Under the pieces are notes generated by a model. That model saw nothing but the letters and a program-made list of their open reading frames with translations, did not search any database and was not told the DNA's origin. From Anaerolineae bacterium (GTDB lineage: Bacteria; Chloroflexota; Anaerolineae; Aggregatilineales; J027), in assembly GCA_019913005.1 (NCBI GenBank), contig JAIOHL010000110.1, positions 1-57,237 of the forward strand: a stretch of 57,237 nt of DNA, read 5' to 3'. This document shows, in pieces, positions 10,441 to 56,853 of this stretch. Each line of letters begins with the position of its first letter. Position 1 is the first letter of the stretch. Position numbers and translations under genes: made by a program.

Positions 10441-10454
10441 TGTTCGTGCCTCGC

Positions 10455-10826: not shown

Positions 10827-10837
10827 AACCACGATCC

Positions 10838-11170: not shown

Positions 11171-11272
11171 TGTGCCATGCCTCCGATTTCCTTATACGAT
11201 TGAGCAGTGGGGATAGGCTTTGCACCTATCCCCCTGTCTCAATTATCCGTTAGCAACCCTTCGGGGGCAACT

Positions 11273-13711: not shown

Positions 13712-13815
13712 TGTGATGAGTCCCCTCGTTTGATTCCTCGATGATGAACTCAGTGTAAACAAAGCCGCCCGGTATCTCACCGGGCACATGGTCGAAATTT
13801 CCTACAACTTCTGGC

Positions 13816-13831
13816 TTAGTCAGGTGACTAA
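13816..13831. promoter_or_regulatory. Operator-like inverted repeat upstream of the FtsX-type permease
   Basis: TTAGTCA (13816-13822) and TGACTAA (13825-13831) are separated by two bases. This is a compact perfect repeat of the kind bound by MarR-type or similar dimeric regulators. It lies about 105 bases before the permease start at 13711, on its upstream side. Confidence 0.4.
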
Positions 13832-13856
13832 TTCTGAGGAGTATTACGCCAGTGGA

Positions 13857-13973
13857 TTAACTGACGAGGCTTAACCAGAGCACGCCGAGCGCGATGGTAA
13901 TGAGGGTAATTGGGACACCCGCTCGTAAATAGGCCATAAAGGTTAACTTTACGCCGCGAGAATAATCATATCC
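13857..13973 (-). pseudogene. C-terminal remnant of an ArsB/NhaD/DASS-type permease
   Basis: The - strand frame ending at TAA 13857-13859 reads GGYDYSRGVKLTFMAYLRAG followed by VPITLITIALGVLWLSLVS. The pattern R.G.P(I/L)TL plus a terminal hydrophobic helix is what the last helix of SLC13/DASS, CitMHS and NhaD-like anion transporters looks like. Only about 38 codons remain; a stop codon and then another gene lie upstream. I read it as a gene relic left by deletion. The family call is from memory of the pattern and is moderate. Confidence 0.45.
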
Positions 13974-13976
13974 CCC

Positions 13977-14363
13977 TCATGGATTTTGGGTAATAAACCA
14001 CTCATGGTAAAAAATCGCCAAATAAAAAGCCTGATCTTCAAATTTTTCGCAAATCGCCACTCGTCCCGTGCCCCACCATTCATCTTTTGGGTCGGGGGTA
14101 TACGTGGTGTCTTTGAGAAAAATCGTCAACACCTGTTGGTCATCACCGACAATACAGCGCAAAATCGTGATATTGGCGTGCTGGTCTAGGTCAATAGGTA
14201 ACAAAACATCGTAGCCATTGATAGACAAAAACTCCGGCTGACCAAATCGAAATTGGCCTTCCCATTTCCACGGCCCTTCGTGTTTTTCCATCAACTCGTC
14301 ATAACGATATTGCTTGATGCGTTCAATGACTTCCGGCAACAAATCAGCGATTTTCATAGGCAT
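13977..14363 (-). CDS. Conserved-looking hypothetical protein (128 aa)
   Basis: A soluble, acidic and aromatic-rich protein with no signal peptide or membrane helix. Visible segments include GPWKWEGQFRFGQPEFL, NGYDVLLPIDLDQ and a C-terminal AICEKFEDQAFYLAIFYHEW. I do not recognise a family. The start may be this codon or the ATG six bases further in; the ribosome site is weak. It abuts the permease remnant and is divergent from the DM13 gene. Codon use resembles its neighbours, which supports it being real. Confidence 0.6.
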   Translation of the reverse strand: MPMKIADLLPEVIERIKQYRYDELMEKHEGPWKWEGQFRFGQPEFLSINGYDVLLPIDLDQHANITILRCIVGDDQQVLTIFLKDTTYTPDPKDEWWGTGRVAICEKFEDQAFYLAIFYHEWFITQNP

Positions 14364-14451
14364 ATCTCAAATACGTCCCGTAATCAATCGTTAAGATTTC
14401 TCGACTACGCTTCCTATTATCGTATGCAACCCAAATGGAGTAAACCACCTG

Positions 14452-15033
14452 ATGAATTTCCCATCCAAAAAGCGCCGCATCATCCTGATGGTAAGTATCA
14501 TCTTGGCGATCCCCGTGTTGGCCCTTGCATGGTGGTTAGGATCCCCCATATTTATTAAGGATGAGGTCAACGAGGAATTACCCGAAAACCTCATCATCAT
14601 TACCCCCACCACAGCCGACCCAGAAGCGGTTTTGGCGAGTGACGACAGTGAAAATGATGCCTCCGAAACAGAGACAACAACAACGGAACAGGTGACGGCA
14701 GTCGAGATAAAACGTGGCCCATTCCGCAATGGGGACAGTTTTCATCAAGGTAGCGGAGATGCCATCATTTATCAATTGTCCACTGGTGAACATCTGCTGC
14801 GTTTTGAAAATTTTGAAGTCACCAATGGCCCGGGTTTGCATGTCTATCTCGTACCACGTGCCAATCAAGATTCGGTCAATATCAATGGCTATATTGATCT
14901 CGGCGCTCTAAAAGGCAACGTCGGCAGTCAAAACTACACCATCCCGGCAGAGGTTGAAATTCCGACTGAAGCCAGCGTCGTTATTTGGTGTGAGCCATTC
15001 GCGGTGCTGTTCAGCGTCGCCAGTCTACAATGA
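14452..15033 (+). CDS. Membrane-anchored DM13-domain protein
   Basis: Residues about 8-28 form a signal anchor. A Thr/Glu-rich spacer (about 50-82) follows, then a DM13 domain (about 85-193). The domain shows the motifs F....HQGSGDA, YQL..GEHLLRFENFEVTNGP, LHVYLVP, LGALKGNVGSQNY and a conserved Cys in VVIWCEPF near the end. DM13 domains are thought to be extracytoplasmic redox or electron-transfer modules; the exact reaction is unproven. The last nine bases overlap the tail of the convergent MFS gene. Confidence 0.85.
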   Translation: MNFPSKKRRIILMVSIILAIPVLALAWWLGSPIFIKDEVNEELPENLIIITPTTADPEAVLASDDSENDASETETTTTEQVTAVEIKRGPFRNGDSFHQGSGDAIIYQLSTGEHLLRFENFEVTNGPGLHVYLVPRANQDSVNINGYIDLGALKGNVGSQNYTIPAEVEIPTEASVVIWCEPFAVLFSVASLQ

Positions 15034-16221
15034 TTCCGCCGTTACGGGCTTGGGACGATTGATGGCAGTATAGGCCACTGCCATAATGATGACGAGCACA
15101 AAGAAAAAGGGCGGAATAATTTCCAGACTGGAACGTTCAGCCAGAATGCCGACCAATCCCGGGATGCCCCCTGCTCCAATACTGGCGGCAGCAACCTGAA
15201 ACCCAATCGCGTTGGGTGCATGTGAGGGACCAAGCCGTTCTTGGGTGTTCGTGACCATCAAGGCGAAAATTGGGGCGAGCATAAATCCATAAATGACCAA
15301 ACCGACAAAACTTACCGTGTCGCTTGGATTCCACCACAATAGCGCCATGCCAACCGCTGCACCACTTAAACAACCTTGTACCAAAATGTGGGTGTTCACC
15401 CGATTGATAATCGCTCCAAAGAAAATCCGACCAATCGTGAAGCTGCCCCAATAGAGGCTAACCCAGAACCGCGCCGCACTCTCGGAGATGCCGCGTTCTT
15501 CATGAAACAAACTAAATGACCACTGTCCGGCGCCTAATTCGACCCCCGTATACGCCATAAACAAAATGATCCCAAGCCAGACAATCGGCATACGTAAGGT
15601 TGAAAGGGCGTCGGCGTGCTGGACTGGTTCTTCGGATTGATGGGCCATCTTTAGGCTGGGCCACGATTGCCGTGTGAGCAAAAACAAAACGACCAGACTC
15701 AAATACATCCCGCCGATAATGGCTGGGCCAATCCGCCACGATGCATCGCTGTTCAAAATGGCGTTCATCATCAACGGCGCAAGTGTCGAACCAATGCCAA
15801 AACAGGCGTGCAGCCAATTCATCAGGCGTGGGCCATAATGGGCAGCGAAATAGACATTCATGCCCCCATCCAAAATTCCCGCTCCCGCTCCGCCAAACAA
15901 CCCAGCCAAGACCAATAGCGCAAATGATGGTGCGATGGCATACCCCAACACCCCCATTGCGCCAAGCACACAGCTTAGAGCCAAAAGCCTAGCAGCGGGC
16001 AGTCGGGCCATCAACCACCCACTGACAAAACTTGCCAGAAAATACCCGGCAGTGCTGGCAAACAGCACAAGGGCGACGGCATCACGCGGTTGGTCAAATG
16101 TCTCGCGCATATAGGGCGACCATGCCACCCCTAACATTGCGCCGGGCATACCCAAGACAATAAAACTGAAATACGCGATAGCAATCACAAATAATTGACG
16201 ATTTTGGGAAGAGGGATTCAA
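15025..16221 (-). CDS. MFS transporter
   Basis: A 398-residue integral membrane protein with about twelve helices. The first half carries the family loop GWLMARLPAARLLAL and a glycine-rich helix GLFGGAGAGILDGGMNVYFA. The overall look is of FucP/fungal-type or YfkF-like MFS permeases, but the substrate is unknown. The start codon is TTG with AAAGGA nine bases upstream. It overlaps the DM13 gene tail to tail. Confidence 0.85.
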   Translation of the reverse strand: MNPSSQNRQLFVIAIAYFSFIVLGMPGAMLGVAWSPYMRETFDQPRDAVALVLFASTAGYFLASFVSGWLMARLPAARLLALSCVLGAMGVLGYAIAPSFALLVLAGLFGGAGAGILDGGMNVYFAAHYGPRLMNWLHACFGIGSTLAPLMMNAILNSDASWRIGPAIIGGMYLSLVVLFLLTRQSWPSLKMAHQSEEPVQHADALSTLRMPIVWLGIILFMAYTGVELGAGQWSFSLFHEERGISESAARFWVSLYWGSFTIGRIFFGAIINRVNTHILVQGCLSGAAVGMALLWWNPSDTVSFVGLVIYGFMLAPIFALMVTNTQERLGPSHAPNAIGFQVAAASIGAGGIPGLVGILAERSSLEIIPPFFFVLVIIMAVAYTAINRPKPVTAESL

Positions 16222-16355
16222 GGGAGTGTGTCCTTTAGGTCAAGACAAGCATTTAAAAGCAATGCAACGATAGATTATGGAGAAGTATGGTTTTCGCCAA
16301 GCCAATTGTCCACATGCTGGCATTCAGTCCACACTTCAGTATCGCCAATCTTGAC

Positions 16356-16548
16356 CTATGATTCTAGTGGATAAATGCCCAATTGCATCGCATTTTGTAA
16401 TGCCATGTCCGGTACGAGTGCATTAAATCGGCATAATTCACCACTGTCCGGGCCTCGCGGGGCAAAATCGTCGTACCGGACTAATCCAAAACAATCCCTT
16501 GCAGTGGCCCAGTATAAGCCCTCTGATTTTTATTTCGTCTAGCGCCAT
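16356..16548 (-). pseudogene. Small conserved-looking gene interrupted by a one-base frameshift
   Basis: On the - strand an ATG at 16548 opens MALDEIK, which goes out of frame at a run of five A residues near 16526-16531. Removing one A joins it to a clean frame, SEGLYWATARDCFGLVRYDD..., that ends at TAG 16356-16358. The repaired product is about 64 residues and rich in charged and aromatic residues. I do not recognise it. It may be a recent pseudogene, a sequencing or assembly indel, or a true frameshift site. It fills the 453-base gap at 16222-16674 together with the operon terminator. Codon use is like the surrounding genes. Confidence 0.4.
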
Positions 16549-16553
16549 ACAAT

Positions 16554-16582
16554 AAAAAACCAGCAATCTCAAGCGATCACTG
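16554..16582 (-). terminator. Terminator of the liv-type operon
   Basis: On the - strand, CAGTGATC and GATTGCTG (16575-16582 and 16561-16568) pair over eight positions with two wobbles around a six-base loop. Six T residues follow at 16559-16554. It is about 95 bases after the livF-like stop codon. Confidence 0.65.
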
Positions 16583-16674
16583 GGCGATGTATTTTTCCAG
16601 ATGCGATTCAAAGTTTATCGCATATTTTCGGCATTCTCAATATGGTTTGCGGTATTATTTAAACGGGATACCTA

Positions 16675-17481
16675 CTAGGACAACCAACGTTTACGTCGTT
16701 TATAATGCTTGACTTCGCGGTAGCTTTTGCGATGTCCTACATCCGTCAGCCCTAGATAAAATTCGCGCACGTCGGCATTTGCGGTTAAATCTTGGGGTGT
16801 ACCATCCAACACCACGCGCCCGTTCTCCATAATGTAGGCATAATCCGCCACGCTTAGGGCGATATTGGCGTTCTGTTCCACCAATAAAATCGTCACCCCT
16901 TGCTCTTGATTAATCCGCTTAATAATGCGGAAAATCTCCTGTACAAGCAGCGGAGCAAGGCCAAGTGAGGGTTCGTCCAGCAAAATCAATTCCGGGTCAG
17001 CCATTAGCGCCCGGCCAATCGCCAACATCTGCTGTTCCCCACCCGACATAAAACCCGCTACCTGCCGTTTACGTTCATTTAGACGTGGGAAATATTCATA
17101 GACAATTTGCATCCGGCGGCGGGCCTCCATCGGATTACGCTGGATATACGCCCCTGCCCGTAAATTTTCTTCGACGGTCAGATGTTCAAAAATCCGCCGT
17201 CCCTCCATCACCTGAAAAATACCCTTACGCACAATCGCGGCAGCATCAGAGTTATGGATATTTTGGCCCTTATACACAATCGAACCATCTGTCACCGCCC
17301 CATTTTCGGGCTTTAGCAAGCCAGAGATCGCTTTGAGCGTGGTAGATTTACCTGCCCCGTTTGCGCCGAGCAGGGCGACAATCTTGCCCTCCTCCACCTT
17401 AATCGAGAGGCCCTTTAACACCAAAATGACACGGTTGTAAATCACTTCAATATTATTCAGGCTCAATAAAGGGTCGGTCAT
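16675..17481 (-). CDS. livF: Branched-chain amino acid-type ABC transporter ATPase, LivF family
   Basis: Walker A is GANGAGKST, the signature is MSGGEQQML and Walker B is LILLDEPSLGL. LivF-specific features are the early GLSIKVEEGKIVALLG and VEQNANIALSVADYAY. The ATG at 17481 with GAGGG upstream is chosen over a TTG 15 bases earlier. The C-terminus has an extra basic tail (HYKRRKR). It is the last gene of the operon, 66 bases after the binding protein. It powers uptake with LivG. The substrate may not be an amino acid; see the acyl-CoA synthetase in the same operon. Confidence 0.9.
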   Translation of the reverse strand: MTDPLLSLNNIEVIYNRVILVLKGLSIKVEEGKIVALLGANGAGKSTTLKAISGLLKPENGAVTDGSIVYKGQNIHNSDAAAIVRKGIFQVMEGRRIFEHLTVEENLRAGAYIQRNPMEARRRMQIVYEYFPRLNERKRQVAGFMSGGEQQMLAIGRALMADPELILLDEPSLGLAPLLVQEIFRIIKRINQEQGVTILLVEQNANIALSVADYAYIMENGRVVLDGTPQDLTANADVREFYLGLTDVGHRKSYREVKHYKRRKRWLS

Positions 17482-17547
17482 AATTTTTGCCCTCAAAATC
17501 TAAAAACGGGGCAGATATACCACCCTGCCCCGTTCATTTTATTCGGC

Positions 17548-18765
17548 TTATTCTTCAGTCCGCAGATCAATCACATCACTGGCGGCTGTCCACACTCCAT
17601 CTTCAACACTGAAAATGGTGAGTGAACGGTTGCCGCGATGATCTTCAGGGGTAAACGTAATCGGCGCGGTGATCCCACCCGTATCAAATTCGGAAATGCT
17701 TTCAAGGTTGGCCTTGATGTTTTCACCCGTCAATTCCTGCCCTGCTGCCAACGTCAGCCGAATGCCTTCGACCATGACCGCCATTGTCCACCACCCTTGT
17801 GTAAAGTGTAGGGTCGCTTCCTCAAGCGTCATATCGTTTTCATCCAGCCATGCACTGGGGATTTCTTGACCGGGGACTTCGACGGTGGTGGGGCCAAAGG
17901 GCAATGCACCAAGCACACCCTCAGCATCTTCGCCTGCCAATTCAATCAAAATTTCATCGGCACACCAGTTCAGACACCCAAATTCAATATCTTCCAGTAG
18001 CCCAAAGTCGGCTGCTTCCGAAACCAACAGAGCCGCCGGGGTGGAGACATTTTGTACGATGATGTGAGTAACACCAAATTCATCGGCACGGGTCAATTCG
18101 GCTTCATAGCTGGTAGCACCACGCGGCATTGCAATGCGCATGGTCTCAATCCCGTTCTCACCGGCAAACGCTTCCCCATCTTCCAGTGGCGAAGTCCCAA
18201 ATGGGCTGTCATTATGAAAAAACACCACCTTCATTTCGGCTGGGTCGCCACCCTCTGCCACCCATTCATCCAACATATATTGCAGCATAATGACGAGTTG
18301 GTCAGAATAGGTCGTCCCTACAAGAAAATTATAGGGTGCTTCGCCCGCTGGGTCATTTAAGGCGGCTGAATACGATGCGGACATAAACGGTACTTGGTCC
18401 TCTGCCACGCGACCACGCAGTGCCTCAGTGTCGCCTGTGCCCCAGCCCATAAACGCGACCACGCCTTCTTCGACAAATTGCACATATAGATTTTCGGCGG
18501 TGGCTACGTCATAGGCATAGTCTTGCGAAAGTAGTTCAATTGGGCGGCCTTCAACCCCACCGTTGGCATTGACCCAATCCACATAGCCCACGACTCCCAC
18601 AGAATAGGGCGTGCCTACGTCACCTGTCGCACCAGAAAGATCAAACACTGCGCCGATTTTGATGGGTTCACCCTCTTGAGCCAACCCAATTCGGCCAGAA
18701 TGGAGGCTTGTGCCGGTCAACAGCGTTACCAAAACTAAAACAATCACAAACAATCTTTTTTTCAT
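17548..18765 (-). CDS. Periplasmic-type substrate-binding protein of a LivJ/LivK-like ABC transporter
   Basis: A signal peptide (about residues 1-30) precedes a mature protein starting near IKIGAVFDLSG, the typical first strand of Peripla_BP_6 proteins. Later segments YVDWVNANGGVEGRPIELL and FMSASYSAALND are standard for the family. GAGGAG lies nine bases before the ATG at 18765. There is no lipobox Cys in the signal region. The family binds branched-chain amino acids, amides, urea, aromatic acids and related small acids; the ligand is not clear. It sits between the livM-like and livF-like genes. Confidence 0.9.
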   Translation of the reverse strand: MKKRLFVIVLVLVTLLTGTSLHSGRIGLAQEGEPIKIGAVFDLSGATGDVGTPYSVGVVGYVDWVNANGGVEGRPIELLSQDYAYDVATAENLYVQFVEEGVVAFMGWGTGDTEALRGRVAEDQVPFMSASYSAALNDPAGEAPYNFLVGTTYSDQLVIMLQYMLDEWVAEGGDPAEMKVVFFHNDSPFGTSPLEDGEAFAGENGIETMRIAMPRGATSYEAELTRADEFGVTHIIVQNVSTPAALLVSEAADFGLLEDIEFGCLNWCADEILIELAGEDAEGVLGALPFGPTTVEVPGQEIPSAWLDENDMTLEEATLHFTQGWWTMAVMVEGIRLTLAAGQELTGENIKANLESISEFDTGGITAPITFTPEDHRGNRSLTIFSVEDGVWTAASDVIDLRTEE

Positions 18766-28200: not shown

Positions 28201-28878
28201 AAATTAGGCCGTGCTAAGTATGAAAAACCCGAAGAAATCGCCCGTCGGGGTTTTCGTCAGACCATCTTACGCGACATGCCAACCTCGATTTGGCCTATCA
28301 GCCTTTCCGCATCAGTGGCAGGGGTTCCGGGCTATGTCATCGGGGATATTGTGCATCGGGCCTTGCGGGTCGGGCTGCTCCCCCGCGACATTAACCCGGA
28401 AATCGTCCAAGACGCGCTTGAAAGTTATGCGTGGGAACGGTATGCCACCAATCAGCAAGTTTTGGACAACGCGGTGCGGCGTGCCCAAGGCCTGCTGGCA
28501 CAGTTTCAATCCAGCGACCTGTACCGCATGTTGCAGGAATGCAGCGAGGTCTACCGCGAAATTGAATTTGCCTATGATCGTGGTGTCCATGTCATTCACG
28601 GCATCATTGATGTGTTGTATCAGTATGAGGGTACGTGGTACGTCTTGGATTTTAAGACCAGCGAAGTGAAATTGTGGTATGTCGCCGAGCATGGCAAACG
28701 TTACGCCTATCAAATGGGCGCGTATGCCGAGGCCGTTCAGCAGCAAATTGGCATCACACCTCATGTGCAGGTCTATTATCTACACCCCGGCATCCTGTGG
28801 AAAATGCCCGAATCGCTGTGGCGGAACGCGATGGCCTCACTCGATAGCGATATTCAACAAGCGCTGAGTCTTACCTAA
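25279..28878 (+). CDS. addA: AddA-like UvrD-family helicase with C-terminal PD-(D/E)XK nuclease
   Basis: It has 1199 residues. The Q motif LTPEQRQAIE is followed by Walker A GAGSGKT (28-34), TFTEKAAREM (motif Ia) and DEFQDTN (motif II, 385-391). Next come GDPKQSIYAFRGAD (motif III), ITLMTVHASKGLEFPVV (motif V) and KRLFYVAATRAQD (motif VI). The C-terminus has GIIDVLY (D1111) and VLDFKTSEV (D1124, K1126), the PD-(D/E)XK nuclease core. Such proteins process double-strand break ends, usually with AddB. No AddB is encoded here, so it is either encoded elsewhere or this is a stand-alone form. Three close ATGs (25279, 25288, 25294) lack a clear SD. Confidence 0.9.
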   Translation: MGTMTMQLTPEQRQAIEITDKNLVVVAGAGSGKTFVLVQRFMHLLDQNPSWTLPSIVAITFTEKAAREMRDRVRQEISQRAAHTPPDDPNAKRWRTHEASLDSARIGTIHSLCAQILRANAVEANLDPEFEVLDEIDTAILLDEAIDQSLAELLETPARALLVEYGVQGVRTSLHDLITSGQCERLIEQLADKTTEVLMKDWQAAWEVNTHRVADALRNDGDFWDCLYWPMSIPEAEQPRGDKLWTVWEDILSYRQVLKNGTPLEIKTTIENLAETIVLNVGSDKNWQGRLHESKAMLRTLRDDHLKTYKSLFLPPPMELDRQLADLLFHWREATALVNKRFRDLKDQNGTLDFNDLENMTAHLLTHYPQVSRRYIQEFKHVMVDEFQDTNAMQRQIIYQLCGIGAKKAPAGKLFVVGDPKQSIYAFRGADVSIFRQVSEEIIQAGGQQVQLSTSFRSHQNLIGCINELFGNLLKTETRFASAYSVTYAPMTANRASSHTANQSPITLMMLPKTGKNGSGLDAEESRRWEADILASQLGRWVEQKLEVWDKKSDQHRPLVFGDITILFQSLSNSPLYEETFQSYGLPYLTVAGKGYYDRQEVWDVMNLLRALHNPADDLSLAAALRSPLFGLSDEALLTLRLRRHGDKLLHLWDALSQDANRTVWEPDWLPIPAEDLSAVEFARQILTSLRTLAGRVTIAELIEQILERTGFEAILTGLPNGEKRRANVQKLLTVAEKSQRVSLGEFNTYLRDMVEAEAREGEATLEAQNAITLMTVHASKGLEFPVVVLADCSWKRQPDKPRIGVDPEVGPACRLMADSNESNDDVDKEGFVYKLAQLSAHARDMAERKRLFYVAATRAQDIMVISGHETSGNSQDWLNQLQAVFKVESYQPNDEIQPVTYRWGNLNLYRPSTIPAPHALIPRRTYSNQWEMLEKGLSPVAIPLPAEFTLATTDATRLGTHSPARHISATHLEKLGRAKYEKPEEIARRGFRQTILRDMPTSIWPISLSASVAGVPGYVIGDIVHRALRVGLLPRDINPEIVQDALESYAWERYATNQQVLDNAVRRAQGLLAQFQSSDLYRMLQECSEVYREIEFAYDRGVHVIHGIIDVLYQYEGTWYVLDFKTSEVKLWYVAEHGKRYAYQMGAYAEAVQQQIGITPHVQVYYLHPGILWKMPESLWRNAMASLDSDIQQALSLT

Positions 28879-28905
28879 GCCCATATTAACCTCTAGGATA
28901 TAACC

Positions 28906-29859
28906 ATGCGTTTAGATTTGTTTAGAAGTGTCGAGAATTGGACAGAACAAGAACTTTCTCAGTTACCCGAAGAAGAATCAGATCAATATGAGTTCAAATC
29001 CAGTCAGACGACATCTGATAAACTAAAGGAAAAAATCCCGGTTGCTGCATCAGCATTCTGGAATTCTGGTGGAGGCTTTTTTATCGTTGGAGTAGATGGC
29101 AAAGGAAAAATAGATGGCGGGATAGAAAAAATTGTTGGGCGACAGAGTCTCCGAGATTGGATTGACCAATTGCTTGCAAAAGTTGAACCTGTTGGCCCAT
29201 ATGCCATAAAAACGATTTCAAGAAGGGGACAGCAATCTAAAATCTCACAAAATCGGGCTGTTCTCGCCATTTCATTTGGGCAAAGCCCAATAGCACCACA
29301 CATGGCTCCTGACAAAAAATATTATATTAGAGCAGGAGCGCACTCCGTACCAGCCAGTCATTTCATATTAGAGGCCATTTTCGCAAGAAGGAAACTACAG
29401 ACGCCAATACTGCGTGCCTTATTTAGAAGAAGTGAGCAAAAATCGAGAATTATTGAATTGGTTATAACGGCGTTGACTGAAATGCCAGCATTGGATGTCA
29501 GGATTTCTTTTGATCCTCTTCCAAAATTCCTTAGCGAAGATATAGGCAGGGATTTCTCTATTCTTATACCTGTTATAGAACAAAAATATCCTTTCATTAT
29601 GGATATTTCCGTTTGGACAGCCAATCCTCAGGTATTTGGAACTGAACCTATAAAACTGAAATTAGAATATAAAGATTCAGCGAGTAAACAATATCAACAA
29701 GAACAGCTTTTAGATATAAACACGGGTTTATCGCCAATCACCATTGGTAGCGACTTCCAAGATGAGATAAATAAAACGCTAAAGGATATTTTTAAGGAGC
29801 TTCGTCAGTTAAACCGTTCTTTGGCACAATTTGTGTCAATTACTGATAGATCCGAGTAA
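28906..29859 (+). CDS. AlbA_2/Schlafen-like domain protein (AT-rich)
   Basis: The N-terminal ~130 residues match the AlbA_2 (Schlafen AlbA) pattern: E..Q.EFK near 26-31, then I...ASAFWNSGGGFFIVGVD (about 44-64) and later PHMAPDKKYYIRAGAHSVPAS. The remaining ~190 residues have no family I recognise. AlbA_2 proteins bind nucleic acids, and some are RNases or defence and regulatory proteins. AGGA sits eight bases before the ATG. It follows addA by 27 bases but is visibly more AT-rich than addA, which suggests transfer. The function is inferred from the domain only. Confidence 0.75.
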   Translation: MRLDLFRSVENWTEQELSQLPEEESDQYEFKSSQTTSDKLKEKIPVAASAFWNSGGGFFIVGVDGKGKIDGGIEKIVGRQSLRDWIDQLLAKVEPVGPYAIKTISRRGQQSKISQNRAVLAISFGQSPIAPHMAPDKKYYIRAGAHSVPASHFILEAIFARRKLQTPILRALFRRSEQKSRIIELVITALTEMPALDVRISFDPLPKFLSEDIGRDFSILIPVIEQKYPFIMDISVWTANPQVFGTEPIKLKLEYKDSASKQYQQEQLLDINTGLSPITIGSDFQDEINKTLKDIFKELRQLNRSLAQFVSITDRSE

Positions 29860-29862
29860 ATA

Positions 29863-30237
29863 TTACTCCATCATCTCAACCCACTGCGCCCGCCATGCCT
29901 GTGCCGGAAAGGGTTCAGGCCAAAATTCGCGGATGTGGATGATTTTGCCATCTTGAATACGAAAAAAGGAAATTGCTGTAAGTGTCTGTTCCTCAGAACG
30001 TGCGGTGATTTCTGTAGTAACTTTATCCCCAGAGGCCACCATGCGCTGAATGGAAATGTGCCACCGCCCCGGATAATTTACATTAAACGCCACAAAATTC
30101 GCTCGGCCTCGCACCCGTTCTTTGGATTGCGGCAGTTCAAATACAAAATTATCGTGTAAAAGCCGACCCGCCTCCTCAAAATCGAAGGTGTCAAAGGCGT
30201 GCCAGAACATTTCGACGATCTCTTGTGGAGTATTCAT
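29863..30237 (-). CDS. NTF2-like/SnoaL-type protein
   Basis: A 124-residue NTF2-like cone fold. It has an N-terminal helix pair (EIVEMFWHAFDTFDFEEAGRLLHDNFVFELP), a mid strand (FVAFNVNYPGRWHISI) and an end pattern AISFFRIQDGKIIHIREFW. This family includes SnoaL cyclases, ketosteroid isomerases and many unassigned small-molecule proteins, so no reaction is assigned. It ends three bases from the AlbA_2 stop on the opposite strand and lies 17 bases upstream of tilS. Confidence 0.8.
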   Translation of the reverse strand: MNTPQEIVEMFWHAFDTFDFEEAGRLLHDNFVFELPQSKERVRGRANFVAFNVNYPGRWHISIQRMVASGDKVTTEITARSEEQTLTAISFFRIQDGKIIHIREFWPEPFPAQAWRAQWVEMME

Positions 30238-30254
30238 AGAATTCCCCCTAATTT

Positions 30255-31814
30255 CTATTCAGGTATTTGCCAACGCAGGCGTAACACTGATTGTTCTTCT
30301 GACCGGACAGCAAATGGCTCGGCAATACGGGCCTGTGGGCCATTAGCGGTTGGGGCGACAAACCACGCAATCTCATCATTGATGGTCAACAGCGGCACAT
30401 GATCTCGATAGTACGACGGCACTTTAAAATTGGTGAAGGTATCAGATAATTTCTGCGACTTGCCGTGCATTCCAAAAGGTCGAAACCGATCCCCTGTCTG
30501 GCGTGTCCGCAGCACCAATCGCGCCCCTTCAGGAATCGCCAACGTTGCAATCAGTGGGTCTTCAAAGCGCAAATCCTTAGATCGGCTTTCAATCACCCAA
30601 TAGCTAATCAATTTCAATTGACCAGCCATAATCGTTGGGCCTGCTGGGTCAACTGAAATTTGTGTGCCGGGGGTGAGATACGGTAAATGCGGCGGATACA
30701 AAGGGCGTCCTCCATATCCAATCGTCACGTCGTCATACCCCACCATCAACCGTACCGCAATCGGTAAATCAAGGTGCATCCCGGTCTTGCCTTTTAAAAT
30801 CAACTCGCGGGCATACTCGGTTTGTTCAAATGAGACATCGCGCAGGCCGGACGAAAGCTCAAACAATACCTTACGAATAATCCCGCGCTGAACAGCAATC
30901 GGCTGTTCCTGAAAAGCCATCCGGTCAATAAATACTAACTCCCCCGGTTCACCATCTGTTTCGGGCGTTGGTTCAGTCTCCGACCAGTCCAATAACCATG
31001 CCGCCGTACTTTCGACACTGCGTTCAATGACGTCTACTTCATCGCGCATCACTGCCGCCAGATGGGTCATGACCTGCCGCACATTGGGATTAAATTTTTC
31101 CAGCGTAGGGATGACTTCGTGGCGCAGTGCATTACGAAAGCGGGTCGTATCTGCATTCGTCACATCTTGCCGAAAGCTGAGACCGTGTGTGTCGGCATAG
31201 GCACGAATTTCAGCCCGCGACACATCCAACAGTGGGCGAATCAACACCACCTCTGCCGGGTCAACATCATCAAAATCGTCCGCATTAGCACCCGTCAGCG
31301 TCCAATCTTCTAACAAATGATATTCGCTCAACGGGGTAATTGGCAGCATCCCACGTAAACCGCGCATCCCGGTACCGCGAATGATGTGCATCAGGACGGT
31401 TTCGGCTTGGTCATCTTGATTATGGGCAATCGCAATCCGGCCTGCCCCAAGCTGGATAGCCGTCTGCATCAAAAAAGTATAACGCGCTTGACGGGCGGCT
31501 TCTTCAAGGTTTAAACCAGCCTCGGCTTTGATCGCCATCACATCGGCTGCACCAGTAACGACTTCGACACCCCATTGGCGGGCAACATCTTCGACAAAAC
31601 GCACATCGGACGCCCCGGCATCGCCGCGTAGCCCATGATTAAAGGTGGCAACCGTTAAATCTATCCGCAATTCTTCGCGCAGACTCAGCAGCGCATGGAG
31701 CAGCACCACCGAATCTACCCCCCCCGATACCCCCACCAATATCAGCGATTGAGGCGGTATCAGATCATGTTGATGGCAGCTTTGGCGTATCTCATCAAGC
31801 AGCGACAAGCCCAT
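30255..31814 (-). CDS. tilS: tRNA(Ile)-lysidine synthetase TilS
   Basis: The PP-loop is VGVSGGVDS (SGGVDS at 30-35). The N-terminal ATPase domain also has FNHGLRGDAG and AIAHNQDDQAETVLMHIIRGTGMRGLRGM. The C-terminal domain contains LVLRTRQTGDRFRPFG and a TilS_C region. It converts the wobble C of tRNA-Ile(CAU) to lysidine using ATP and lysine, which is essential for AUA decoding. The ATG at 31814 is preferred because AAGGAA lies nine bases upstream; earlier in-frame starts lack this. It is 519 residues, slightly longer than the usual 430-480. Confidence 0.95.
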   Translation of the reverse strand: MGLSLLDEIRQSCHQHDLIPPQSLILVGVSGGVDSVVLLHALLSLREELRIDLTVATFNHGLRGDAGASDVRFVEDVARQWGVEVVTGAADVMAIKAEAGLNLEEAARQARYTFLMQTAIQLGAGRIAIAHNQDDQAETVLMHIIRGTGMRGLRGMLPITPLSEYHLLEDWTLTGANADDFDDVDPAEVVLIRPLLDVSRAEIRAYADTHGLSFRQDVTNADTTRFRNALRHEVIPTLEKFNPNVRQVMTHLAAVMRDEVDVIERSVESTAAWLLDWSETEPTPETDGEPGELVFIDRMAFQEQPIAVQRGIIRKVLFELSSGLRDVSFEQTEYARELILKGKTGMHLDLPIAVRLMVGYDDVTIGYGGRPLYPPHLPYLTPGTQISVDPAGPTIMAGQLKLISYWVIESRSKDLRFEDPLIATLAIPEGARLVLRTRQTGDRFRPFGMHGKSQKLSDTFTNFKVPSYYRDHVPLLTINDEIAWFVAPTANGPQARIAEPFAVRSEEQSVLRLRWQIPE

Positions 31815-36505: not shown

Positions 36506-36662
36506 CTAGTCCCTCTAAAAATTAGCGTTATGTCGGCATATAGTATAGTACGGGCAATTTTAAGGCAAGACAAAACCCGTGTTTGAAAAGTAGTAGCATT
36601 ATGCGCACAATGAGGTAAGATAGTAGCTCATTCGACCTAAATATTAAAACGGTGTAGTTATA

Positions 36663-38630
36663 ATGAAGAGAAAAACTGAAAATGCGACCTCGCACTATGC
36701 TAACGAAATGTTTGGAGATTTTTCAGGTCTCGATATAGTTTTCGCAAGATTTGAAAGTCAACAACAGTCTAATTTTCAGGAGCTTTTTAGAGGCTTTTCA
36801 AAGTTAAGAGTGCTTACCTATTCAAATAGTGTTTCAATTATAAACAAAGCAGCAGAAATGTTTGAAGAAATTGAAATTGTTTTTGGTCGTGAAGATATCT
36901 TAAATGGAATGGCTCAATATCTGCACTATCAAGAACTTCTAATTAGAGAATTAATTACAGAAACCCAAAAAAATGACTTTATTAAGCAAAAAATAGATGA
37001 TGGGAAAATTATGCTCTATGTTGTTCAAGATTCCATTTCTCATGAAAAGTTATTTCTATTAGAAGGTCCATCAGGTACACGAGTTATTACCGGGTCAGCA
37101 AATTTCTCGACAAAGGCATTTTCTGGGGATCAAAACGAAAGTTACATATGCTTTGATAATGACGAAGAGGCATGGAGTTATTTTTCGAGGAAATATGAAA
37201 AAATCAAGATAAATTCCACAACGAGTATCTCTAAAGAAGCTATCCTTGAAGGCAATTTTGATATCGAGAATATTCCTATTCTCTCACCAAGCCAAGATCA
37301 CAACAACACCCCTAAAATCATAGTCGTACATGATCGTCCTCCAACTCCTAATATTATTCAAAAAGTAATTCAAAAAACTCCAAAGCATTACGAGGGAATA
37401 AGTCAGGTTATTCCATCATCTCAGGGAGTTTTCCGAATCGATAGGTCAATTGCAACAAGAGCTATTCAATACGTTAAGAGCAACTCACGAACAGAAGACG
37501 ATAATCCTGACGAGTATCTAAGTATTCATCTCAACTCTGGCAGAGTAGTGCATTCAGGTAAAGAGATGAATTTGGATGTATCTATAACCGAATTACAAAA
37601 AGATGTTGAGCTATTGTGTGAGTATTTTGAAGGATATAAGCATTTTAGAGGTGACTCTGAAAAACTTGCCCGTGATTACTTTACTTTCATGAGTTGGTTT
37701 TATATTAGCCCCTTGATTTGTGACTTTCGGAACAAAGCTATCGCAGGAGAAAAAGACCTTAATCATCTCGATTATCCTGTTTTTGGAATATTGTATGGCA
37801 AAAGTAATTGTGGAAAATCAGAATTAATTAGAACCTTATTGCTATCGATGTTTAGTCAAGAAGGTTTTTTGCCGAATAGCTGGTTTACTAAGAGTGCAGT
37901 CGCTAATTTGCGCGAACAAAACAAACGATTCCCAATGGTGTTTGACGATTTAGACAGAACACGGTTTAACGATCATGCAATTCCACTTATTAAAGAAGAC
38001 TTTACATACTTACATGAGTATCCCGCTATTGTCTTATCCATGAATGCTGACAAAGATACTTTTGAAACCGAAGTTAGAAAGCGCTGTTTAATCATTTATA
38101 CAGGAGCTTCATTACCAGATCATACAGGGGAAAGCCGAGAATTAGTTGGAAAAATCAAGAGAATAAAAAGAAATCTAGGGAATAGTCTCTATCGTGAATT
38201 CTTAGCAAGAGTTTTGACTCAGTTATCAGAAGACGAAATACCAACTGATATTCTGAAATTTTCATCTACTATCTTAGCTGGAATATTCAAAGAATCTAGC
38301 CCTATAAAGACCCTTGATTGGTGTCGTATTACAAGTATTGAAGAATATAGCAGAGGAAAACATGATAAGGTCAAGAATGATCTTCTTGAAATCTTAAAAT
38401 ATAATCCCGAAGCGTGGAGTGAAAAAGGAAATAAAATAATCCTCACATTCAACGACAGCGTGGAGCAGCGTAAGCTCTCAAGAGACATACCAGATTATCT
38501 CATAAGCAGCAAGTCTGGTAATATGATTATCTTTTATAAGAATTACCTTGAGGATTTTCTAGAAATGGAATTATTCCCACCAAAGCGAAAGTCCTTTTTC
38601 GGTTTCCCACGATCCCCTAAAAAGCATTGA
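36663..38630 (+). CDS. AT-rich PLD-like nuclease fused to an SF3-type P-loop ATPase; candidate defence gene
   Basis: It has 655 residues. The N-terminal domain (about 20-180) resembles a phospholipase D-like/NgoFVII-type nuclease, with one HxK motif (H127, K129) followed by TGSANFS (143-149). The acidic residue of a full HKD motif is not obvious. A linker (about 205-255) leads to a C-terminal ATPase: Walker A GKSNCGKS (379-386), Walker B MVFDDLD (425-431), sensor LSMN (458-461) and a basic EVRKR (470-474). This order looks like an SF3 helicase. No signal or membrane helix is present. It is clearly more AT-rich than its neighbours and inserted alone between puuD-like and eamA-like genes. Function as phage defence is an inference from domains and context. 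Confidence 0.7.
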   Translation: MKRKTENATSHYANEMFGDFSGLDIVFARFESQQQSNFQELFRGFSKLRVLTYSNSVSIINKAAEMFEEIEIVFGREDILNGMAQYLHYQELLIRELITETQKNDFIKQKIDDGKIMLYVVQDSISHEKLFLLEGPSGTRVITGSANFSTKAFSGDQNESYICFDNDEEAWSYFSRKYEKIKINSTTSISKEAILEGNFDIENIPILSPSQDHNNTPKIIVVHDRPPTPNIIQKVIQKTPKHYEGISQVIPSSQGVFRIDRSIATRAIQYVKSNSRTEDDNPDEYLSIHLNSGRVVHSGKEMNLDVSITELQKDVELLCEYFEGYKHFRGDSEKLARDYFTFMSWFYISPLICDFRNKAIAGEKDLNHLDYPVFGILYGKSNCGKSELIRTLLLSMFSQEGFLPNSWFTKSAVANLREQNKRFPMVFDDLDRTRFNDHAIPLIKEDFTYLHEYPAIVLSMNADKDTFETEVRKRCLIIYTGASLPDHTGESRELVGKIKRIKRNLGNSLYREFLARVLTQLSEDEIPTDILKFSSTILAGIFKESSPIKTLDWCRITSIEEYSRGKHDKVKNDLLEILKYNPEAWSEKGNKIILTFNDSVEQRKLSRDIPDYLISSKSGNMIIFYKNYLEDFLEMELFPPKRKSFFGFPRSPKKH

Positions 38631-38654
38631 GCAGAAATAAACCTAGTATGATAG

Positions 38655-39620: not shown

Positions 39621-39768
39621 AGATGCCTCTGGTTGGGAATGTGCGCGGTTTTATCAGTGTACATCCAAAACACCTCCGAGAAAAAGGGGGTTTTGACAAT
39701 TGAACGCATATTTTGTGCAATAATTTAAATATGGGAAAATTTATGTGCAGTTACAAAGGGAGTCACTC

Positions 39769-40104
39769 ATGAAAATACAGAGTCTAAATTCTCACCTAAG
39801 CCCTATCATCAATCGAGCCGGTGTTACACTCCTGCTCATGCTGTTCCTCTCCGTCATGAGCCTTGCTCTTTGGGGATCCCTTACCCAAGATAATATTGGA
39901 ACATTCCTCACCGTGCTTGGCTTCCTGCTCATCATCGCAACATTTGGCTTTAATGTAGTCCGTGACGTTATCCGTCAAATATTTGGCATCAGTTACACGG
40001 CTTCTGAAAAGCGAGTGACCATTGTGTCCATTGGCTCGAATTTCATCGCCGGGCTACTCGCGGTTTTTATTGGGGGCATGATTATTTTAATGGCTACTAC
40101 CTAA
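39769..40104 (+). CDS. Small two-to-three helix membrane protein of unknown function
   Basis: A 111-residue protein with hydrophobic segments at about 18-38, 44-65 and 88-108. AAGGGAG lies six bases before the ATG at 39769, which is preferred over an earlier in-frame start. A TTGACA box at 39693-39698 with AATAAT at 39719-39724 could be the promoter, but the 20-base spacing is long. No family is recognised. A secreted-protein gene follows after 21 bases. Confidence 0.6.
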   Translation: MKIQSLNSHLSPIINRAGVTLLLMLFLSVMSLALWGSLTQDNIGTFLTVLGFLLIIATFGFNVVRDVIRQIFGISYTASEKRVTIVSIGSNFIAGLLAVFIGGMIILMATT

Positions 40105-40125
40105 GTTTTACCGAGTGCGATTATC

Positions 40126-41127
40126 TTGAAATCCCTACTGATTAGCCTAATCCTTCTGCTCACAGTGGCGGGTAATTTCGCCACTCCAATTAATGCGTCC
40201 CCTGACGAAAGCGTGTTATTGTTAGCCCGTGCCAATGACACCAGCCCACACGCCCTCTACAAAATCACCCTCGATGAAGCAGGCCATCTGACCAAAACAA
40301 CCCTTCTGGCCGCTTCGGAGGGATACACCTTAGTGAACCGCACCCCGGAAGCCCTCGATTTTGTACGTGCCGCCGATGAACCACCTCTCCATATTATGAT
40401 TGAGACAGGTGAGCGATTGATCCTAGAAGATGATCCTACCCCATCCGCTGACGACCTCTCTGAAAAATGGACTGCCCAAATCTTAGCCCAAGTCACTCCC
40501 CTGTCCGGCCCACGCGATTTCCACCCATTTTCTAATGGCGTTATCTTCAGTATGACCGGGCCAACCGACAATTTTTTGAATCTGTACTGGTTGGATTCTT
40601 CAGGCACGATTCAGCAGTTAACCTCGGTTGAAAAAATGGGGGATAGCCTCCAACCGTTGCTTTCTGCCAGCGCCGAATTTCTCAATTGGCGACCTCAATT
40701 TCTCTCCTTTCTCTATCGTGCCCGCCAACGCGATATGCAAGGACGGGATCATAACGAACTGCGCCTATATTCGTTGGACGATTTTTCCGATGTACCTGCC
40801 CCCTATTTTGGCAAAACCCCGGTGTGGTCAGCCGATGGCGATTGGTTGGCGGGTGTCCGATTGAATGACACTACCCCCCCACTCTACATTTTGTGGCGCG
40901 TAGAATGGACTACACGTGAAGCCATTGAAGTTGGGCCGGGCTGCAATCCGGCATGGTCAGGGAATTGGCTGGCCTACGATGGGCATGATAATAGTCAATG
41001 GCAGGGTTATACCGATTGTTACGCCAATGGTCGGGTATTTGCTCAAAATACGAATTCAGGAGAGGCCATCGAATTATCAGCGGGAATTGAGGGATATGTC
41101 TTATTAATAGGGTGGATGGGCGATTGA
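40126..41127 (+). CDS. Secreted beta-propeller-like protein of unknown function
   Basis: A 333-residue protein starting with TTG. A signal peptide (about 1-24) is followed by repeats with the look of a TolB/WD40-type propeller: LLARANDTSPHALYKITLDEAG, NLYWLDSSGTIQQLT, LRLYSLDDFSDVP, TPVWSADGDWLAGVRL and NPAWSGNWLAYDG. The W(S)xDGxWLA motif is typical of TolB-like blades. No catalytic residues are seen. It probably works outside the membrane together with the small membrane protein upstream. Confidence 0.7.
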   Translation: MKSLLISLILLLTVAGNFATPINASPDESVLLLARANDTSPHALYKITLDEAGHLTKTTLLAASEGYTLVNRTPEALDFVRAADEPPLHIMIETGERLILEDDPTPSADDLSEKWTAQILAQVTPLSGPRDFHPFSNGVIFSMTGPTDNFLNLYWLDSSGTIQQLTSVEKMGDSLQPLLSASAEFLNWRPQFLSFLYRARQRDMQGRDHNELRLYSLDDFSDVPAPYFGKTPVWSADGDWLAGVRLNDTTPPLYILWRVEWTTREAIEVGPGCNPAWSGNWLAYDGHDNSQWQGYTDCYANGRVFAQNTNSGEAIELSAGIEGYVLLIGWMGD

Positions 41128-54798: not shown

Positions 54799-56853
54799 AT
54801 GAATGGGGTTTCTAAATTGGCTCTTTTCTTCATATCATATGCAAAAAAAGATGGCATAGCTTATGCCCGTGAATTAAAACAAAACCTTGAAAAAGCTGGA
54901 TTACCTTCATGGATAGACGAAACCGATATTGGAATGGGTAAAGAGTGGCGGATTGTCATTGATAATGCCCTTGAAGCATCTATATGTGTAATCGTAGTTG
55001 TCACAAATGAAGCACTAAATTCACATAATGTTACTTATGAATGGTCGACAGCAAAGGCGCTTAATAAAGAAATTATACCATTACTTTTTGAGAACATTGA
55101 TTCATTGACTCTCACTCACCACCCTTTGTTTGCATTGCAATTCCGGGATTTCACTAATATCGTCAATCGGCCTTGGGGTAATTTGATAGAAGACTTGAGG
55201 CATGTTAAGACTCAAAAAGCTATCCACCCAACTGTAGTTGAAGCCGAACGCATTTTAAACACTCCAGACCCAAGCCGTTGGGTAGGCGCAATTGAAACGT
55301 TAAAACATTTTGAAGACCCATCTGCGATTGAAGCATTGGCTCGTTTGGTAAGCAATCACTCACCCGAAGTAAGTATACGTGCTGCGCTTGCATTGAATGA
55401 AAAAACTAATTACAGCGATCCAAGAAGCATACCGGGTATGATTAAATATGTACTGAAATCAAAGGAATGGAATCATTGGTATATTGATGGTTACAAAGCC
55501 CCATTAGTCCTCTTCCAAAGGATAAATAATCCCGACAGCATTGATATATTGATCAACTTAATGAATGAGATACAAATCTCTAGTAACTCTCCTGATAATA
55601 AAAAATATTATATTGAAGCACTAGCCCAAATCTCTCACCCTTACACTTTACCTCATCTTAGAAGATTATTTGATGATCCAAGCATTGAAGTCAATGACCG
55701 CAACATCATTGCTACAGCGATTGCCCAATTCCGAGATCCAGATACTTTCCCAGCCTTGACGAACTACTTGAAAAACAAGTTTAGTCAACGTAGATGGAAA
55801 CCTTTAATTCCCATCCTTAAAATCTTGTATCCATATATCATAGATGATTTAATCGAGTTTGGCTTTCAATTATATGATGACAAACATAATATTGGTGTTT
55901 TTTTTGACATTCTAGATGCCATAAATGAAAGTGGGAATTCTACGAACGAAGGCATTTTGAAAATAGTTATTCATGAAAAAGGTATACCAATATTAGTTGA
56001 ACTATTGGATATACCTAAGCATGATAGATATGGAAAAGTAGAAATAGATCCCTATTATCAATGGTTTGTGTTGGCTTTCGCAAAAATTGATACACCCTCT
56101 CAAATTGCTCTATTTAAGGCATTTATGCAGCATTCTGAGCAACATATAAAATCTGTTGCGAATTTTTTGAAAATAGTGGAGAAAAATGGCAAACTTCCTT
56201 CTGATTTCATACTTGAACTTCTTGCCACTGAAAAAGGGCTAAATATTTTGACAGAAGGTTCACTTGATATTTTGAGAGAAGGCTCACTTGGGTGGTATAT
56301 AGGGAATGAATCAAAGCTATATCAATGGATTGAAGAAGCAGTATCTTGTATTGGTAATAACAATAAATCTGAATTGCTCGAAACTGAAACCCATTTGGAC
56401 GATAGCCAATCGCTTGAAGATTGGCTATTAAGCCTAACATTTCATAGCGAACCTGATATTTCATTAAGAATTTTAGAACTTACTTCCCTATATCATCGTT
56501 TGCAAGGGGAAAAATATAACAAAATTAGAGAGATTGTTATACGAAAATTATGCGAGTTCAACGACGTTCGTATAATAGATCCCCTTCTCTCAGAACTAAA
56601 CATAATAGCGCAACACAAGAAGATACGGCTTGAGAAAAACGAGAACGACCTGTTTTTTGATGATTTGTTTGACAGCCCCGATCATTACCGGGAGATGCTC
56701 ATTAAAATATTTGAGGCACTTGCAAATATAGAAAATAACGGTGGCAAAGCTAGTTTGAAGACATATGAAGAAGACACTTATTTTAGAGACTGGAGGGATT
56801 CACTGAGAAGATTGAGGCTTGGAGAACAACCTAATTACCCTTCTCAATATTAA
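54799..56853 (+). CDS. AT-rich TIR-domain protein with HEAT-like repeats; candidate NADase defence protein
   Basis: It has 684 residues. The TIR domain (about 6-120) has LALFFISYAKKDGIAYA, LPSWIDETDIGMGKEW, ICVIVVVTNEAL and TYEWSTAKALNKEIIPLL, in which E81 is the probable catalytic glutamate. HEAT-like helical repeats (about 155-330) include AIEALARLVSNHSPEVSIRAALALNE and HPYTLPHLRRLFDDPSIEV. The C-terminal half is helical but unassigned. No signal peptide or membrane helix is seen. The gene is much more AT-rich than gyrA and the aldolase on its flanks, which suggests acquisition. Bacterial TIR proteins often cleave NAD+ on phage sensing; that role here is an inference. Confidence 0.8.
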   Translation: MNGVSKLALFFISYAKKDGIAYARELKQNLEKAGLPSWIDETDIGMGKEWRIVIDNALEASICVIVVVTNEALNSHNVTYEWSTAKALNKEIIPLLFENIDSLTLTHHPLFALQFRDFTNIVNRPWGNLIEDLRHVKTQKAIHPTVVEAERILNTPDPSRWVGAIETLKHFEDPSAIEALARLVSNHSPEVSIRAALALNEKTNYSDPRSIPGMIKYVLKSKEWNHWYIDGYKAPLVLFQRINNPDSIDILINLMNEIQISSNSPDNKKYYIEALAQISHPYTLPHLRRLFDDPSIEVNDRNIIATAIAQFRDPDTFPALTNYLKNKFSQRRWKPLIPILKILYPYIIDDLIEFGFQLYDDKHNIGVFFDILDAINESGNSTNEGILKIVIHEKGIPILVELLDIPKHDRYGKVEIDPYYQWFVLAFAKIDTPSQIALFKAFMQHSEQHIKSVANFLKIVEKNGKLPSDFILELLATEKGLNILTEGSLDILREGSLGWYIGNESKLYQWIEEAVSCIGNNNKSELLETETHLDDSQSLEDWLLSLTFHSEPDISLRILELTSLYHRLQGEKYNKIREIVIRKLCEFNDVRIIDPLLSELNIIAQHKKIRLEKNENDLFFDDLFDSPDHYREMLIKIFEALANIENNGGKASLKTYEEDTYFRDWRDSLRRLRLGEQPNYPSQY

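Follow-up and report, generated by a model that had tools for sequence, protein, structure and literature searches.

A phospholipase D-type nuclease joined to an AAA+ helicase-like motor, encoded by a lone, widely spread gene in an Anaerolineae genome

The gene and the domains of its product

The DNA analysed here, contig JAIOHL010000110.1 of an Anaerolineae bacterium (57,237 nucleotides, referred to as the window), carries a gene for a 655-residue protein in which a phospholipase D (PLD) nuclease domain precedes an AAA+ helicase-like motor. Coordinates of this PLD-AAA+ gene and its parts are collected in Table 1. A sequence-only reading of the window had described it as a PLD-like nuclease and an ATPase of the helicase superfamily 3 (SF3) type in one chain, isolated and AT-rich between core genes. 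The G+C content (GC) of the gene is 0.35, compared with 0.50 over 16 kb of flank, and the source genome contains a single copy. The two adjoining genes, both on the opposite strand, were assigned by Pfam to Peptidase_C26 (puuD-like) and to EamA transporters, and neither is a mobile-element gene.

The N-terminal domain belongs to the PLD nuclease superfamily, in its NgoFVII/BfiI branch. In the window protein, Pfam assigned residues 97–187 to this superfamily: RE_NgoFVII scored above its cut-off (E = 1.3e-5; 25.0 bits against 23.8) and PLDc_2 slightly below its own (E = 5.4e-6). In an alignment of 53 sequences, made up of the window protein and 52 of 80 fetched relatives, PLDc_2 matched 51 members and RE_NgoFVII 44. 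When the full-length model was compared with the PDB using Foldseek, only three rows were obtained at E values up to 0.001, all of them restriction enzymes: the R-protein of NgoAVII (4rct, 1.4e-5) and two chains of SauUSI (7clg, 6.6e-5 and 1.4e-4). A second structure comparison added Nuc (1byr), NucT, FAM83 and other PLD folds, which matched over the N-terminal part with Z scores of ~10–12. Residues H127, K129, G144, S145, A146, N147, S149, Q157 and E159 are identical in all 53 sequences, and each chain has one PLD half-site (HxK…GSAN…E). Residue 134, at the acidic place of the HKD motif, is variable (E in 28 sequences, S in 19, K in three, and Q, A and D in one each), in keeping with the remark of the sequence-only reading that the second acidic residue was not obvious and that a dimer might be needed. 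An active site would likely require two chains, since each contributes a single conserved half-site and since SauUSI, BfiI and NgoAVII provide precedents.

The full-length AlphaFold2 model (mean predicted local distance difference test score (pLDDT) 79.7, predicted template modelling score 0.59) consists of the PLD domain, a poorly predicted linker, the AAA+ domain and a small C-terminal domain; modelled alone, the motor half (residues 280–655) reached a pLDDT of 92.1. The order of motifs given by the sequence-only reading (HxK…GSANFS, Walker A, Walker B, LSMN) was thus confirmed, and the motifs are conserved, although the small C-terminal domain had been missed. By our own reading of the models, the latter may be winged-helix-like. 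Motor residues identical in all members are G379, G384, K385, D428, D429, K444, N461, K473 and R474. The fold predicted for the motor half was nearest to SaPIBov1 Rep (Z 13.1 over 281 residues, root-mean-square deviation (rmsd) 7.7), followed by Cch of SCCmec (Z 12.9 over 285 residues, rmsd 7.1). These scores lie about three Z units over the first MCM row (10.0), and lower values were obtained for the SaPI5 primase-helicase (9.3), AsfvPrimPol (9.3), papillomavirus E1 (8.8) and D5 (8.5). The PF00910 (SF3) profile was found in six of the 53 members and gave an E value of 0.12 in the window protein. Neither DUF927 nor any Pfam family of helicase superfamily 2 (SF2) matched any of the 53 members at E values up to 0.001; of 101 genomes, five encode proteins with DUF927. 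When PDB sequences were searched with a profile, four matches came back, none useful (three G-protein P-loops and one calcium-channel subunit). The joining of a PLD nuclease to a helicase-like ATPase therefore holds by Pfam and by folds, but the motor is nearer to SaPIBov1 Rep and Cch than to textbook SF3 proteins.

Table 1. Features of the PLD-AAA+ gene and of the insert that contains it (window positions; aa, amino acids of the protein)
Feature	Positions	Strand	Basis or remark
Stretch of ~2.1 kb absent from four same-genus genomes (gene with ~145 bp before and 23 bp after)	36518..38653	.	blastn
PLD nuclease-AAA+ helicase-like fusion protein	36663..38630	+	Open reading frame from ATG to stop, 655 aa
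PLD nuclease domain, aa ~25-190	36735..37232	+	Pfam PLDc_2, RE_NgoFVII; folds 4rct, 7clg, 1byr
HxK of PLD half-site, aa 127-129 (H127-E-K129)	37041..37049	+	Identical in 53/53
GSAN of PLD half-site, aa 144-147	37092..37103	+	Identical in 53/53; E159 at 37137-37139
Linker, aa ~191-284	37233..37514	+	pLDDT below 50 over aa 189-256 and 265-280
AAA+ motor domain, aa ~285-560	37515..38342	+	Model of aa 280-655, fold matches
Walker A, aa 378-386 (YGKSNCGKS)	37794..37820	+	G379, G384, K385 identical in 53/53
Walker B, aa 425-429 (MVFDD)	37935..37949	+	D428, D429 identical in 53/53
Sensor-1 Asn, aa 461 (in LSMN)	38043..38045	+	Identical in 53/53
Lys-Arg, aa 473-474, candidate arginine finger or sensor (role inferred)	38079..38084	+	Identical in 53/53
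Small C-terminal alpha/beta domain, aa ~561-640	38343..38582	+	Helix/strand order in models; within Rep and Cch alignments

Comparison with known nucleases and motors

The fusion can be set beside characterised systems described in the literature. SauUSI, a type IV enzyme, carries an H(X)K(X)4E motif and its PLD domains dimerise with a pre-formed site (PMC7913695); like the window protein, it is a single chain with an N-terminal PLD domain followed by an ATPase, and HEKLFLLE in the window protein has the same spacing. However, SauUSI possesses its own SF2 motor of RecA fold, a coupler and an SRA domain, whereas the fusion has a predicted Rep/MCM-like AAA+ motor and no SRA match, and the glutamate of the SauUSI motif is not conserved among the relatives of the window protein (28/53). 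R.NgoAVII and BfiI likewise dimerise through their PLD domains, and NgoAVII and CglI are stated to cut only with ATP hydrolysis (PMC4267653). These enzymes are the closest by PLD fold (4rct) and by Pfam RE_NgoFVII. In NgoAVII and CglI, ATP hydrolysis falls to a separate SF2 protein, a B3 domain reads the DNA and there is an accompanying methyltransferase, none of which was seen here: the window locus has Peptidase_C26 and EamA genes as neighbours in place of an adjacent methyltransferase gene and a separate SF2 ATPase gene.

For the motor, Cch is described as an MCM-like protein akin to the Rep helicase of SaPIBov1, both being island replication proteins (PMC7581432). The predicted model of the fusion shares with them the fold of the AAA+ and C-terminal domains, but it lacks a DUF927 match and a PLD nuclease precedes its motor. 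SF3 proteins, including Rep proteins with an HUH nuclease and an SF3 helicase, resemble it in their Walker A and B motifs, the Asn sensor, and a nuclease and ring helicase in one chain; in the fusion, PLD stands in place of HUH, and the AsfvPrimPol, E1 and D5 folds score lower.

PLD-family proteins also occur in defence systems, namely DrmC of DISARM, ZacB of Azaca and AgaP. That ZacB is of PLD nature is our own reading, which we draw from where its profile matches: at E values up to 1e-3 it was found in 41 of 53 members, and in the window protein (E = 0.013) it covers 30 residues around HxK (127–156), no full-length match being present there. With PADLOC, the window protein gave no match at E values up to 0.001 and its matches are short; apart from ZacB (41/53), mad8 was found in 24/53 members. 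AgaP acts together with an Argonaute (PMC11442185); no Argonaute gene was found among the window neighbours checked. The likeness to DISARM raised by the sequence-only reading was not upheld. By Pfam, a DrmA/DrmB/methylase operon is absent among seven window genes that include both adjoining ones, no partner genes were found among those checked, and at most two of the 53 members match DrmC (one each, with two profiles).

No NCBIfam model matched the window protein, PHROG matched none of the 53 members, and in the literature searched, among the titles and abstract beginnings listed, there was no description of a PLD domain fused to a helicase of the SF3-, MCM- or Rep-like kind. The fusion is thus without a name in the libraries searched. 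Membership in the SauUSI, NgoAVII, DISARM, Azaca or Rep/Cch groups fails in each case on at least one tested feature, so that what we propose below is that the protein works like some of them, not that it is one of them.

Insertion, spread and neighbourhood of the gene

In blastn comparisons of the window with four genomes of the same genus, homology ended at 36517 and resumed at 38654 (at 36502 and 38656 in the fourth). The EamA gene is 98, 97, 96 and 85% identical in these siblings, and the gap between the matching puuD-like and EamA blocks is 136, 147, 58 and 74 bp, versus 2136 bp in the window. The siblings' short intergenic sequence is not retained beside the window gene; therefore, either the insertion was not clean or the site has since diverged. 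The PLD-AAA+ gene was not found in the four same-genus genomes (4/4) or in the five other genomes of the same family (5/5), some of them incomplete. The description of the gene as isolated and inserted between core genes thus stood, as did the absence of a mobile element: no terminal inverted repeats or target duplication were seen at the insert, and a flanking transposon was rejected. Groups of aligned relatives had no common ends, and scans for promoters and terminators performed no better than on shuffled sequences. Since empty sites alone fit either gain or loss, it is the low GC and the patchy occurrence that lead us to favour a gain in the window genome over losses in the four siblings. 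As a sign, AT-richness is of mixed value: the window gene has the largest gene-to-flank GC drop of 76 loci with enough flank, but over these loci the median difference amounts to just -0.02; the value lies below -0.05 in 19 of them and is positive in 18.

Relatives of the protein are widespread. A collection of genomes yielded 109, of which 80 were kept, from Chloroflexota, Bacteroidota, Actinomycetota, Latescibacterota, Gemmatimonadota, Pseudomonadota, Myxococcota, Acidobacteriota and others, while a sample of 400 Chloroflexota genomes, source genome included, contained 23 with a match, a few of them weak or broken. Phylum labels on a tree of 82 rows require 17 changes, compared with 31.3 after shuffling and a possible minimum of 11, indicating that clustering by phylum is real but loose. 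The clade that contains the window protein (nine rows, 99*) also includes Hymenobacter, Rubrobacter, Ignavibacteria, Kapaibacterium, Chloroploca and a single unplaced row, so that Bacteroidota, Actinomycetota, Chloroflexota, Ignavibacteria and Kapaibacteria are represented. Four distant relatives (L020, L021, L022 and L032; 17–21% identity) have the same PLD-AAA+ order. E159 is replaced in L020–L022, which may point to a second subfamily whose site is altered. An ordinary host enzyme of DNA repair or maintenance would be expected to look otherwise: purifying selection in the pairs compared (see below) agrees with such a role, but the failure to find the gene in the nine same-genus and same-family genomes searched, its 23/400 occurrence in the phylum and a tree that does not follow phyla make this explanation very improbable, and a housekeeping gene was rejected on the same patchiness. 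A phage gene was also rejected, as two pattern-based scans of viral contigs and a search of phage records revealed no relative and PHROG matched no member.

Twelve plasmid records matched (Acetobacter, four; Komagataeibacter, three; Arcobacter, three; Thermus, two), eight of them over at least 80% of the protein; the annotations read 'phospholipase D family protein', 'restriction endonuclease PLD domain-containing protein' or 'hypothetical protein'. Mobilizable plasmids carry the gene in stretches rich in toxin–antitoxin modules. On one Thermus plasmid (L031, 7986–11044), the relative is split by transposase genes, and the second Thermus plasmid (L033) has the same first half and the same upstream gene block. 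This plasmid occurrence, together with the nearness of the AAA+ and C-terminal domains to SaPIBov1 Rep and Cch, would suit a plasmid or island protein, either a Rep-like replication initiator or a nuclease that expels competing replicons, and a distant relative on an Arcobacter plasmid adjoins ParA/ParB near a replication initiator. However, most relatives were found on genome contigs and not in plasmid records, two of the plasmids have separate replication-initiator genes, and DUF927 is missing from the members. Nor was an iteron origin supported, since the window has no iteron-like repeats and relatives show no clear excess (a 7-mer occurred four or more times in 300 bp in 3/82 upstream, 0/81 downstream and 2/255 random regions). 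We consider a role in replication or exclusion improbable.

When all loci were compared with one another by blastn, 52 pairs proved to be at least 78% alike across the gene. Colinear flank matches of 200 nt or more were lacking in 24 of these, among them L029/L030 (Acetobacter plasmids), L095/L106, L067/L080 and L084/L087 (Myxococcota/Acidobacteriota, 91% alike, with 2.6 and 1.7 kb available), and present in 28, including L047/L058, L028/L034, L042/L043, L086/L106 and the Latescibacterota set. For 11 of the 24 flankless pairs (79–96% identity), more than 2 kb was available on both sides; by local alignment, their matches stop at -212 to +115 nt relative to the start and at -24 to +120 nt relative to the stop. 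In nine of the locally aligned pairs, six of which belong to a single group, the match stops no more than 1 nt from the stop codon, and in one pair its ends coincide exactly with the start and stop codons. Plasmid Apa386Bp1 bears two copies, one in surroundings common to three other plasmids and one elsewhere, where the gene alone matches. In many cases, then, what the loci share is the gene and nothing around it.

Among the 69 carrier genomes, 63 have a single full copy and six have two to five. One SAR202 genome (G486; L149–L155) contains five full copies besides fragments, two of them decayed (L153 and L154); four of the five copies are ~93% alike, dispersed and intact, with a common upstream stretch. 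Changes were in excess at third codon positions in 13/13 pairs examined (six from G486 and seven others) and, because most changes lie there, the copies have been kept functional by purifying selection in the pairs compared.

These observations raise the question of whether the gene moves itself. The PLD domain might nick DNA through a covalent phosphohistidine while a Rep-like ring peels off the strand, the gene then copying itself elsewhere without terminal repeats. Such an element would be a PLD counterpart of the HUH-helicase rolling-circle elements, that is, of Rep plasmids and of Helitrons, whose copying is driven by proteins with an HUH nuclease plus a helicase. It would account for homology of gene size between loci with unrelated surroundings, for intact copies scattered through a genome and for the occurrence in many phyla, and the flankless pairs, the match ends near start and stop, the two Apa386Bp1 copies, the multi-copy genomes and the resemblance of the motor to replication initiators of mobile islands all agree with it. 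Yet 28/52 pairs share flanks, the ends differ between groups, and the insert shows neither terminal repeats or target duplication nor iterons; 63 of 69 genomes hold a single full copy, and the G486 copies are ~93% alike and not near-identical. Moreover, toxin–antitoxin modules on the same plasmids likewise recur alone in other surroundings, and lone-gene shuffling is therefore no proof of self-mobility. Overall, self-mobilisation appears rather improbable, if marginally less so than the replication or exclusion role.

The genes around the relatives were inspected for partners. In the clusters listed around 84 loci, none of the gene families keeps a fixed position next to the gene, except within closely related sets. 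In the Latescibacterota loci L056, L060, L063 and L068 a Schlafen-AlbA_2 gene overlaps the PLD-AAA+ gene by 4 nt, an HsdM gene comes after it, no more than 50 nt away in L056, L060 and L061 and 1.5 kb away in L063, and an HsdS gene lies farther along in L060, with similar genes in L061 and L063 (Pfam assignments were made for L060). The L060 stretch (8340–17769) reads, in order, Schlafen-AlbA_2, the PLD-AAA+ gene, HsdM, a P-loop gene, an SH3-domain gene and HsdS; we read the P-loop gene as zeta-toxin-like. Elsewhere, methylases of several types occur within 5 kb of relatives. A tRNA hotspot was rejected (8/85 loci versus 8/60 controls).

Three further features of the window were recorded. At 54799–56853 on the plus strand, a gene for a 684-residue protein with a TIR domain plus HEAT repeats lies beside a gyrA-like gene in an AT-rich region (GC 0.34–0.38); four same-genus genomes match its TIR part only, and that partially, with no full-length relative among them, and it may be a second acquired immune-type gene. 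At 39670–40191, ~0.5 kb with a 119-residue open reading frame (39745–40104, no Pfam match) corresponds to ~100 bp in three same-genus genomes and to a stretch of similar length in the fourth, more distant one, which would fit either gain or loss. A further GC dip (0.40–0.45) is found at 28501–30500, by a tilS-like gene.

A proposed defence role

In our preferred reading, to which we give a probability of about 0.5, the protein is a stand-alone, one-protein, ATP-driven PLD nuclease directed at foreign DNA from phages or plasmids. Defence is the likeliest role because the gene is lone, patchy and widely spread, is not found in viral collections and sits in some cases beside type I restriction-modification genes. 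Two chains would pair through their PLD domains to create one metal-independent cutting site, and the AAA+ domains would form a ring that, with the small C-terminal domain, might load on DNA and hydrolyse ATP as a replication-initiator helicase does. Cutting could then depend on engagement with DNA in a certain state, such as DNA that is being replicated or is partly unwound. The logic would be that of SauUSI or of CglI/NgoAVII, in which ATP lets a PLD dimer cut, but the motor would be of another class, a Rep/MCM-like ring and not SF2. The gene often spreads on its own.

Several results weigh against this proposal. The kinship of the motor with SaPIBov1 Rep and Cch, the closest that was found, is one of predicted fold, and Foldseek gave no match for the motor half at E values up to 0.001. 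No target-recognition domain (SRA or B3) was matched by Pfam at that threshold in the 53 members, the fold lists being non-exhaustive. The adjoining genes in the window are not defence genes, and many relatives come from metagenome assemblies. Copies at several places in one genome are as compatible with a mobile gene as with one for defence. Methylase motif IV was detected at 5/20 loci, over 5 kb on each side of the gene, and in 6/60 control regions of 12 kb from the same 20 genomes (one-sided Fisher p = 0.098). Of the five motif-bearing test loci, two belong to a single lineage and another seems to carry the motif by chance; by eye, four of the five test matches (two of them from that one lineage) and four of the six control matches are probably true methylases. 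A first comparison (20/86 loci versus 0/20 controls) lost its strength with 60 control regions, and it is on the latter that we rely. Families matched by PADLOC among neighbours (122 proteins) overlap those in controls (137 proteins): among the top 25 of 145 test and of 119 control families, type I and III methylases are prominent in the test set, and AriA-, Mad- and HEC-like families occur in both. Enrichment of methyltransferase motifs near relatives is thus suggestive but weak, and in this respect the defence idea of the sequence-only reading gained little, although the N-terminus proved to be PLD and the relatives are not all syntenic.

A related explanation is a suicide nuclease, in which the motor would sense abnormal DNA and free the PLD domain to destroy intracellular DNA in abortive infection, in the manner of Hachiman. 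Hachiman activity ends in cell death. Two reports describe Hachiman as a nuclease-helicase complex that detects DNA damage (PMC12278908, PMC10925250), a parallel that speaks for this explanation, as do the toxin genes nearby on plasmids. No antitoxin-like partner recurs among the clusters listed, however, and the data do not part suicide from direct restriction. We regard it as unlikely, though less so than self-mobilisation.

Whichever activity applies, one chain here joins a restriction-type PLD nuclease to the class of motor that starts the replication of mobile islands, and this arrangement is conserved across many phyla and on plasmids. If the gene were self-mobile, it would represent a new chemistry for rolling-circle-like mobility. 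If it acts in defence, it would extend the modes of ATP gating of PLD nucleases by an AAA+ ring motor, in the form of a compact single gene.

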